In this document: piece after piece, positions 27,935 to 29,745 of the stretch
Numbering within the stretch: position 1 is the first letter of the stretch
Layout of the letters: each line of letters begins with the position of its first letter
Assembly (NCBI RefSeq): GCF_003991565.1
Contig: NZ_CP032819.1
Span: 3,038,001 to 3,102,000 of the forward strand
DNA length: 64,000 bases
Origin: Butyricimonas faecalis
Lineage (GTDB): Bacteria; Bacteroidota; Bacteroidia; Bacteroidales; Marinifilaceae
Direction: 5' to 3'
Made by a program: the position numbers and the translations under genes
The notes under the pieces: generated by a model
What the model saw: only the letters and a program-made list of their open reading frames with translations
Told to the model about the DNA's origin: nothing
Databases searched by the model: none

Positions 27935-28046
27935 GAAGTTGTCCAACTCCTTCCCCTAACCCCTCTTCACATAGGTGCGAAAATAGCTTAGTAATCAGCT
28001 CTCCCCCTGTGTAAGGGGGAGTTGGAGGGGGTAGTTGGACAACTTC
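27935..28046. repeat. palindromic intergenic repeat, copy 1 (likely bidirectional terminator)
   Basis: The 112-bp element has perfect 13-bp terminal inverted repeats, GAAGTTGTCCAAC (27935-27947) and GTTGGACAACTTC (28034-28046), and an inner C-rich/G-rich pairing (CCCCTAACCCC near 27953; GGAGGGGG near 28024). It fills the gap between two convergent genes. Parts of it, such as CCCCTAACCCCTC, AATCAGC and GTTGGAC, recur in order at 43514-43626. Confidence 0.75.
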
Positions 28047-28048
28047 TT

Positions 28049-29140
28049 TTATTCATTCATAATGTCCGTCTGTCGGTCGATAGAGGCTTGGTGTATGGCC
28101 TTGAACACCCGCTCCACGAGTTCTTCACTCAAGTTATTCTTGCGAGCTTCTTCGAGAACTCGGGTCAATATTTTTTCCCAGCGGTCCGGTTGGAGAATGG
28201 TAATGTTGTTTTGTTTTTTATACATCCCGATCTCTTCAATAATCTTCATCCGGTTGGTGAGAGCTTCCATGATCGTGTTGTCCAGCGTATCGATTTTTTC
28301 CCGGAGTTCTTCCATGATTAAAGTATTGTTTGAATTGTTTGGATGTTCTTCCCGAATAACTAGATGAGTTAGAATTTGATTCAATTGATCGGGGGTAATT
28401 TGTTGAGAAGCATCACTTAATGCACAATCCGGATTCACGTGAGATTCGATAATTAATCCGTCAAATCCCAAGTCCATGGCTTTTTGTGATATTTCTTGGA
28501 TATACTCCCGGTGACCACTGATATGGCTGGGGTCACAAAAGAGCGGTAAATTCTTAATGCGTCGCTTTAATTCAATAGGTATTTGCCATTGAGGCATATT
28601 ACGATAGCGGGTACTGTTATAAGATGAAAACCCGCGATGAATAGCGCCTAATTTTGTAATACCACACAAATAGAGGCGTTCAAAAGCACCAATCCATAAT
28701 TCTATGTCCGGATTTACCGGATTCTTGACGAGAACCGGGATGTCAACTCCTTTCAGGGAGTCTGCGATTTCTTGAACGGCAAATGGATTTGCCGTGGAGC
28801 GGGCGCCAATCCATAACATATCCATCCCGTATTTCAATGCGGTTTCCACGTGATGAGCATTAGCGACTTCCGTGGAAATCTTCATTCCCAACTCTCGTTG
28901 GATATTTTGCAACCAAGGCAATCCTTTCACGCCAACTCCTTCAAAGCAATTCGGACGAGTCCGAGGTTTCCATATCCCGGCTCGTAAAACTTCTATTCCA
29001 TTGTTTTTCAATAAACTTGCAGTCTTAAAAAGTTGCTCTTCAGTTTCGGCACTGCAAGGACCTGCGATCATTAATGGACGTGTTTGTCGGGTAAACAAAT
29101 TCCACTCGGAATAAGATGGTATCTCTAATGCTTTGGTCAT
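28049..29140 (-). CDS. bifunctional DAHP synthase / chorismate mutase (type II)
   Basis: The N-terminal ~265 residues are a 3-deoxy-7-phosphoheptulonate synthase of the KDO8P-like (AroA-beta) class: MIAGPCSAET, GIWKPRTRPNCFEGVG, STEVANAHHVE, WIGARSTANPF, LVKNPVNPD, CDPSHISGHRE and IIESHVNPDCALSDA. The C-terminal ~90 residues form an AroQ chorismate mutase (LREKIDTLDNTIMEALTNRM). One protein thus performs the first step of the shikimate pathway and the step committing chorismate to Phe/Tyr. I place the start at the ATG at 29140; an in-frame TTG at 29164 lies inside a TATCTTTG promoter-like box. Upstream lie two tandem Tyr/Phe-rich leader peptides with terminators, consistent with control by aromatic aminoacyl-tRNA supply. 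Confidence 0.95.
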   Translation of the reverse strand: MTKALEIPSYSEWNLFTRQTRPLMIAGPCSAETEEQLFKTASLLKNNGIEVLRAGIWKPRTRPNCFEGVGVKGLPWLQNIQRELGMKISTEVANAHHVETALKYGMDMLWIGARSTANPFAVQEIADSLKGVDIPVLVKNPVNPDIELWIGAFERLYLCGITKLGAIHRGFSSYNSTRYRNMPQWQIPIELKRRIKNLPLFCDPSHISGHREYIQEISQKAMDLGFDGLIIESHVNPDCALSDASQQITPDQLNQILTHLVIREEHPNNSNNTLIMEELREKIDTLDNTIMEALTNRMKIIEEIGMYKKQNNITILQPDRWEKILTRVLEEARKNNLSEELVERVFKAIHQASIDRQTDIMNE

Positions 29141-29415: not shown

Positions 29416-29443
29416 AAAAAACCCGGCTGGTTTCAGCCGGGTT
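29416..29443 (-). terminator. attenuator terminator 2 (after leader peptide 2)
   Basis: On the minus strand AACCCGGCTG pairs with CAGCCGGGTT around a 4-nt loop, followed by a run of Ts (29421-29416): a strong intrinsic terminator. Its 5' arm CCCGGCT (29441-29435) can instead pair with AGCTGGG (29500-29494) inside leader peptide 2, which would prevent termination. Confidence 0.85.
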
Positions 29444-29461
29444 GAATAAATATAATATGCG

Positions 29462-29563
29462 TTACTTACATTTTGCAGGTATTACAAGGTCATCCCAGCT
29501 ATTGTTGAGGCAATAATAATAGTAGAAATAATAACGACCTGTATGTGAAAAAATAGTATTCAT
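29462..29563 (-). CDS. leader peptide 2, Tyr/Phe-rich (33 aa), attenuator
   Basis: From the ATG at 29563, 33 codons include the run YYFYYYY (residues 11-17: six Tyr and one Phe in seven codons). Downstream RNA can form exclusive structures. Region 1 (29540-29530, overlapping the first Tyr codons) pairs with region 2 (29503-29487); region 2 (AGCTGGG, 29500-29494) pairs with the 5' arm of terminator 2. A ribosome stalled at the Tyr/Phe codons would mask region 1 and free region 2 to disrupt the terminator. This is the logic of trp/phe-type attenuation. The peptide is likely only a sensor. Confidence 0.8.
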   Translation of the reverse strand: MNTIFSHTGRYYFYYYYCLNNSWDDLVIPAKCK

Positions 29564-29584
29564 GTCTATGGTTTTAAATGAAAA

Positions 29585-29605
29585 AGGCCTCGAATTTCGG
29601 GGCCT
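29585..29605 (-). terminator. attenuator terminator 1 (after leader peptide 1)
   Basis: On the minus strand AGGCC (29605-29601) pairs with GGCCT (29589-29585), with a further inner CG/CG pairing, followed by five Ts. The stem is shorter than terminator 2. A GGGG at 29636-29633, just after the leader-1 stop codon, could pair with the CCCC of the 5' arm as a weak antiterminator. Confidence 0.65.
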
Positions 29606-29637
29606 CTATATTTTTAACAATCACAATATTTTCCCCT

Positions 29638-29694
29638 TTACTTTTCCGGAAAGTAATAATAGAAATAGTAATATGAGGTGTACATCGTGTTCAT
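29638..29694 (-). CDS. leader peptide 1, Tyr/Phe-rich (18 aa), attenuator
   Basis: The complete product is MNTMYTSYYYFYYYFPEK: seven Tyr and two Phe among 18 residues, including YYYFYYYF. It starts about 15 nt after the predicted transcription start, with a purine-rich AAGAAGAG just upstream as ribosome site. A terminator follows 33 nt after the stop. Such composition and position are the hallmark of amino-acid attenuator leaders (compare pheL). The next gene of known function downstream is DAHP synthase/chorismate mutase, which makes precursors of exactly these amino acids. Confidence 0.82.
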   Translation of the reverse strand: MNTMYTSYYYFYYYFPEK

Positions 29695-29714
29695 TCTCTT
29701 CTTATTGTTCGAGA

Positions 29715-29745
29715 CAAATATAGGCATTCTGAAATATAAAACAAA
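29715..29745 (-). promoter_or_regulatory. promoter of the Tyr/Phe leader-peptide transcript
   Basis: On the minus strand TTTG (29745-29742), a 19-nt spacer and TATATTTG (29722-29715) form a perfect Bacteroidota promoter. It fires toward leader peptide 1, leader peptide 2, the 45-aa ORF and the DAHP synthase gene. Confidence 0.85.

Follow-up and report, generated by a model that had tools for sequence, protein, structure and literature searches.

The gap between polA and the gene for DAHP synthase/chorismate mutase (DAHP/CM) in Butyricimonas faecalis carries, on the minus strand, two leader units in series, each a short open reading frame (ORF) with a run of tyrosine and phenylalanine codons followed by an intrinsic terminator. 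Leader units of the same kind stand before the pheA genes of related genomes, with one gene order in the seven operons mapped at length, and the pair in the window (the whole 64,000-nucleotide stretch analysed) therefore looks like the inherited attenuators of an aromatic operon. We conclude that these are probably two serial Tyr/Phe attenuators of trp type that descend from an Odoribacteraceae aromatic operon situated beside polA and are orphaned in the window genome.

Anatomy and predicted folding of the leader region

The first-pass annotation had described a promoter, a first leader peptide (LP1) with its terminator (T1) and a second leader peptide (LP2) with a strong terminator (T2); re-reading and recomputation found every one of these elements present (Table 1). 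That account ended at T2, and a 45-codon ORF, a third hairpin (T3) and a second promoter box (P2) lie beyond it. The Bacteroidota-type promoter consensus is TTTG plus TAnnTTTG, and a TAnnTTTG box also precedes LP1 in four of seven pheA operons (L289, L291, L292 and L293). Each leader ORF is closely followed by its terminator, with stop-to-stem gaps of 32 nt in unit 1 and 18 nt in unit 2. The segment containing T2 (29416-29560) folds with a z of -3.6, marking a strong terminator, and the T1 stem of the window genome contains one C-A mismatch. The leader region has no Rfam match above gathering score; Phe_leader (RF01859), considered as its family, reaches 23.6 bits against a gathering threshold of 55.

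Table 1. Features between the leader promoter and the end of DAHP/CM (positions in the window)
Feature	Position	Strand	Remarks
Promoter P1 of leader unit	29745-29715	minus	TTTG 29745-29742, 19-nt spacer, TATATTTG 29722-29715; read from sequence
Leader peptide 1 (LP1)	29694-29638	minus	MNTMYTSYYYFYYYFPEK, 18 aa, Y7 F2, run YYYFYYYF
Region 2 of unit 1	29637-29622	minus	AGGGGAAAAUAUUGUG; in folds, pairs upstream or with T1 5' arm
Terminator T1	29605-29585	minus	T tail present
Leader peptide 2 (LP2)	29563-29462	minus	MNTIFSHTGRYYFYYYYCLNNSWDDLVIPAKCK, 33 aa, Y6 F2, run YYFYYYY
Antiterminator strand of unit 2 (AGCUGGG)	29500-29494	minus	partner 29441-29435 (T2 5' arm)
Terminator T2	29443-29420	minus	10 pairs, T tail
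45-codon ORF	29377-29240	minus	in G001, placed after the lyase gene
Third hairpin T3	29220-29190	minus	T tail (ATTTTTA) to 29183; folding energy -17.6 kcal/mol (z -3.1)
Promoter box P2 of DAHP/CM	29169-29162	minus	TATCTTTG, 21 nt before likely ATG 29140
DAHP/CM gene	28049-29140	minus	PF00793 and PF01817; likely ATG 29140

Such units are rare by chance. Defining a unit as an ORF of at most 50 codons that begins with ATG, has at least five Tyr or Phe residues within eight codons and is followed by a terminator, we count two in the 671-nt gap between polA and DAHP/CM; among 1000 dinucleotide shuffles a single unit arose once and two never did. The same scan on both strands of the window returned these two units and no others. 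A bare run of six Tyr/Phe codons is not enriched in the genome (44 places, against 50 for a reversed control), and of the 30 of these places whose terminators were scored only LP1 and LP2 have one. Inspection of the other 14 by eye showed no terminator-bearing leader, leaving no further leader of this kind among the 44, and a search of the genome for a second copy of the region found none.

We infer transcription from P1, the sensing of tRNA charging and the direction of the response. A ribosome stalled on uncharged tRNA within the Tyr/Phe run would leave region 2 to pair with the 5' arm of the terminator, and polymerase would read on; a ribosome reaching the stop codon would prevent that pairing, and the terminator would form. 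Two units in series would multiply the stringency. Our model of these states folds the nascent RNA at equilibrium and lets the ribosome mask everything up to 15 nt beyond its P site.

In unit 2 the pairing of region 2 with the T2 5' arm, which had been proposed from the sequence and amounts to 7 bp including one G-U, is present and stands above shuffles: shuffled spacers do as well in only 0-3 of 300 trials in each of the four leader-bearing genomes. Across these genomes the arm is paired upstream at 0.81-0.88 with the ribosome on the Tyr run and at 0.23-0.26 with the ribosome at the stop. With no ribosome the value is 0.84-0.88, and in the window genome it is 0.84, equal to the stalled values there of 0.81-0.86. 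The proposed pairing of regions 1 and 2 is less clear-cut. In the best fold before the arm is made, all four genomes pair some or all of region 2 with the 5' portion of LP2, but the proposed register (AGGUC with GACC) is the best such fold only in G001 and G003; the window genome prefers another 1:2 register, although one full-length fold has the proposed one. At equilibrium, the 1:2 pairing of unit 2 fails to stop the 2:3 pairing.

In unit 1 the T1 5' arm is paired upstream at 0.51-0.62 in the stalled state and at 0.06-0.13 at the stop, and shuffles are as good in 104-181 of 300 trials across the four genomes (180 in the window genome). Without a ribosome the value is 0.53 in G004, against 0.01-0.02 in the other three; if the RNA starts 10 nt further upstream it becomes 0.44 in the window genome, 0.12 in both G001 and G003, and 0.49 in G004. 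The LP1 guard of the window genome thus depends on the start of the RNA, its unguarded pairing going from 0.02 to 0.44 when the 10 nt are added. Taken together, the folding values imply a strong antiterminator with a weak guard in unit 2, and in unit 1 an antiterminator no better than chance whose guard is sensitive to the start site. T3 was also considered as a third attenuator: its 5' arm is paired upstream at 0.39-0.47, a figure without a shuffle control, which gives no sign of a switch and does not argue decisively against one.

Aromatic operons of related genomes

Prephenate dehydratase is found in 35 of 56 genomes of the family, and 30 pheA loci from these were examined. Upstream of pheA, Tyr/Phe leader-terminator units occur in tandem in 16 of the 30 loci and singly in 12; the two leaderless loci are L281 and L285, the latter with just 80 nt of upstream sequence. 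The polA gene adjoins the pheA operon in eight of the 30, and it falls inside the mapped stretch in five of the seven operons mapped at length. All seven read LP1-T1-LP2-T2-pheA-aspC-tyrA-DAHP/CM, which, next to polA, would have been the ancestral form. The ORF before DAHP/CM is 279-287 residues long and of the same kind in each, and in L287, the one scanned, Pfam identifies it as prephenate dehydrogenase. Three further loci (L294-L296, of genomes G018, G028 and G017) have neither leaders nor pheA.

The window leaders align with LP1 and LP2 of the pheA operons at both the DNA and the peptide level, as in LP2, where GRYYFYYYYCLNNS matches NRYYYFYFYCIKSS of L291. The original identification of two trp-type leader-peptide attenuators in series is supported, and the relatives that carry homologues have DAHP/CM at the end of their operon. 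The DNA alignment took in six of the seven mapped operons and, with Butyricimonas, ten sequences. Compensatory change, proposed in the first-pass annotation as a check across relatives, is sparse. T1 has one double-changed pair, C-G in five of the ten sequences and U-A in five, but all ten keep the five inner pairs of the unit 2 antiterminator with zero double changes. The unit 1 antiterminator takes the form AGGGCUU/AAGCCCU in relatives, with up to 7 bp and one pair that is A-U in five of ten sequences and G-C in three, but its covariation score is no better than that of shuffles (225 of 500). T2 is out of register between the clades, and covariation over both failed through misalignment.

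In a wider set of DAHP loci, 25 of 80 have an upstream Tyr/Phe leader with a terminator, compared with none of the 80 on the opposite strand. Four of the 25 are tandem, namely L003 (the locus of G004), L025, L042 and L048. The leader is followed by a prephenate dehydratase gene in L040 and L048, and by aminotransferase and prephenate dehydrogenase genes in L025. Model means are 0.79 stalled, 0.55 free and 0.23 at the stop for the 29 leaders of these 25 loci, and 0.79, 0.61 and 0.26, with 0.51 for shuffled spacers, for 44 leaders of the family; test values for both sets are overstated because related leaders are not independent.

The codon make-up of the leaders has shifted. Counted over LP1 and LP2 together, the four leader-bearing Butyricimonas have 13-16 Tyr and 2-4 Phe each; at the tandem pheA loci, all 16 of them, the counts are 0-10 Tyr and 8-15 Phe. 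Judged by such counts, the specificity of the sensor seems to shift from genus to genus. The tandem pheA leaders of L270, L273-L275 and L280 are almost Phe-only (0-2 Tyr, 13-15 Phe), and those of other genera are mixed.

The genes behind the attenuators in Butyricimonas

What has become of this operon in Butyricimonas? Prephenate dehydratase is detected in none of the six genomes compared (G000-G005, the window genome being G000), and none has a prephenate dehydrogenase match (PDH_N) above cut-off, G004 reaching a sub-cut-off 21.4 bits where the TyrA of a relative scores 107.5. The TyrA search used PF02153; PF20463 was dropped as uninformative, having no match in a Bacteroides control. Auxotrophy for Phe and Tyr is predicted for the genus, although DAHP/CM is retained, as it is nearly everywhere (95 of the 96 genomes searched have a match, the window genome included). 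At the locus itself pheA-aspC-tyrA is missing, and the leaders there are mainly Tyr.

The same leaders are present in G001, G003 and G004 and absent from G002, G005 and G010, the last belonging to the next genus. LP1 has identical amino acids in the window genome, G001 and G003 and one change in G004, and the SWDDL tail of LP2 is common to all four. Since G002 and G005 are without leaders, the pair could possibly have been re-acquired instead of retained by vertical inheritance.

In G001 a 483-codon gene lies between T2 and the 45-codon ORF, and its product is a beta-eliminating lyase (PF01212). Compared with solved structures it scores 385 bits against tyrosine phenol-lyases and 321 against tryptophanases. 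At the tyrosine phenol-lyase active-site positions, whose labels we take to be T124, R381, F448 and M288, it has T134, R390 and F457, where the tryptophanase of the same genome has D, I and H, and it has F at the position corresponding to M288. It falls below the cut-off of NCBIfam TIGR02618 (tyrosine phenol-lyase), with 447.1 against 720.7 bits. As far as its sequence tells, then, the gene behind the attenuators in G001 is tyrosine-phenol-lyase-like and is not a DAHP synthase.

The lyase gene is present in G001, in two fragments in G004 and lacking in the window genome and G003. We infer loss rather than a gene never present. For G003 this is the simplest reading, as its sister is G001, with 98.1% identity in polA; the lineage of the window genome may never have had the gene, since it and G004 are unordered in the tree. 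Because the window genome has no lyase gene at this place, its attenuators are orphaned and now stand before the 45-codon ORF and T3.

Homologues of the lyase occur more widely. G012, of another genus, has one of 53% identity without leaders, and a tyrosine-phenol-lyase-like family of about 480 residues, 55-76% identical to the G001 protein, is found in 36 of 393 Bacteroidales genomes (L113 3822-5273 and L151-L181). As a trait of this family the leaders were rejected, the Tyr pair being found in G001 alone of the 33 lyase loci read; at 11 others a loose filter, with terminators unscored, picks out an aromatic-rich ORF, and two (L173 and L174) offer just 200 and 92 nt of upstream sequence. The leaders had at first been assigned to the lyase, a reading displaced by the leaders before the pheA operons of relatives.

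The 45-codon ORF is found in four of the 56 family genomes, exactly the four with these leaders, and begins and ends alike in all of them (MKT..SNLQ ... KF.FKHGTFC). Its Nd/N of 0.08-0.13 against an Sd/S of 0.27-0.39 suggests that it is apparently under amino-acid constraint, and its product has no Pfam match. T3, which the terminator scanner that called T2 had missed, is present in all four genomes; it is the probable end of the leader transcription unit, and it may be leaky. In the window genome the attenuators could thus control the 45-codon ORF, with at most weak read-through into DAHP/CM. Downstream, where DAHP/CM and its neighbour converge, an imperfect inverted repeat (27935-28046; GAAGTTGTCCAACT ... 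AGTTGGACAACTTC) lies between the two gene ends.

Competing explanations and known systems

Could both attenuators still gate DAHP/CM in the window genome by read-through, as the first-pass annotation had proposed? The gene lies on the same strand, it comes last among the genes mapped in the operon of relatives, and the leaders are well preserved across species, all of which would fit. The first genes of the operon have gone, however, and with the 45-codon ORF and T3 in between and a box of its own before DAHP/CM, direct control of the synthase here is unlikely. Nor, judged by sequence, does transcription of DAHP/CM solely from the leader promoter agree with P2 and the intervening hairpin. P2 is without a TTTG element at the usual distance, but a box of its TAnnTTTG type also precedes DAHP/CM in the leaderless G002, G005, G010 and G028; it was not found there in the leaderless G017 and G018, nor in any of the seven intact operons within the 130 nt examined before the DAHP match. 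Tyr control of DAHP/CM would moreover be of little use because the genes for the Tyr and Phe end products are undetectable. A different suggestion, that in the window genome the segment has become a decaying relic and now serves no function, is compatible with orphaned attenuators and deserves more credence, although on balance we lean against it. No structural gene of the ancestral operon stands directly behind the leaders, the T1 stem has its mismatch and the LP1 antiterminator is not above chance; yet promoter, reading frames, Tyr codons and T2 are intact, LP1 is unchanged in amino acids in three species and the 45-codon ORF looks constrained.

The lyase of G001 brings to mind TnaC, the leader peptide of tryptophanase. 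By analogy, a nascent peptide would stall at its stop codon when free Tyr is abundant and so induce the tyrosine-lyase-like gene, and both the family of that enzyme and the common SWDDL tail of LP2 are in keeping with such a device. We regard it as very improbable, however, since a modelled ribosome at the LP2 stop frees the T2 5' arm for the terminator, the terminators are intrinsic, the two leaders align with leaders of pheA operons, which are biosynthetic, and only one of the 33 lyase loci read has the pair. The likeness to TnaC lies in a leader peptide before a beta-eliminating lyase, as in G001; unlike TnaC, the leaders here give no sign of stop-codon stalling. A further scenario, improbable as a whole, has a Butyricimonas ancestor that had lost PheA and TyrA rewiring the tandem Phe/Tyr attenuators, retuned to Tyr, onto the tyrosine-phenol-lyase-like enzyme run in reverse, with the window species later losing the enzyme and keeping the bare switch. 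Reverse operation, making Tyr from phenol, pyruvate and ammonia, would be called for because the switch would open on Tyr starvation.

Attenuators of the trpL/pheL type combine a short ORF containing a run of the sensed codons, alternative RNA pairings and an intrinsic terminator. The orphaned pair shares all three, the alternative pairings as predicted folds, as well as a biosynthetic operon as its target in relatives; it differs in having two full units, one behind the other, that carry codons for the same amino acids, in its occurrence in Bacteroidota and in its changed target operon. Another close arrangement is the Salmonella mgtCBR leader, described in PMC3641672 as a singular example, in which tandem attenuators answer to ATP and to proline. 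There too two short ORFs with attenuators share one leader, and one of them responds to tRNA charging, but the mgtCBR units sense different signals, whereas both units here carry aromatic-codon runs.

Within the same phylum, excerpts from a transcriptome study of Flavobacterium psychrophilum report strong clues for leader-peptide attenuation before amino-acid operons (PMC9723704), and text from a study of B. thetaiotaomicron describes leader-like sORFs (PMC7366714); neither tandem units nor aromatic leaders come up in these excerpts. The authors of PMC2965389 state that, ermC aside, they were aware of no leader peptide system demonstrated outside Proteobacteria and Actinobacteria before their Firmicutes case, and PMC4833913 cites a 2010 comparative survey (Lopatovskaya et al.). 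Searches of the literature, mainly of freely accessible papers, turned up no tandem aromatic attenuators in Bacteroidota. To call such attenuators little described in this phylum, as the first-pass annotation did, is thus fair but not absolute, given the Flavobacterium clues (PMC9723704).

The stacking in series of attenuators for the same amino acids appears to be a common trait of this family (16 of the 30 pheA loci examined), whereas the tandem leader found in the literature has been called singular, and the loci form a natural series in which the contribution of a second attenuator can be studied. Most interesting as a lead is a tyrosine-starvation switch before a tyrosine-lyase-like enzyme: if the switch does open on Tyr starvation, its place before the lyase would fit, speculatively, either Tyr synthesis or a substrate other than Tyr. 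The orphaned attenuators would also provide testable predictions for the aromatic amino-acid genes of gut Bacteroidota, and, for evolution, the example of a starvation sensor that survived the loss of its operon, shifted in codon composition and ended up in front of a different enzyme.
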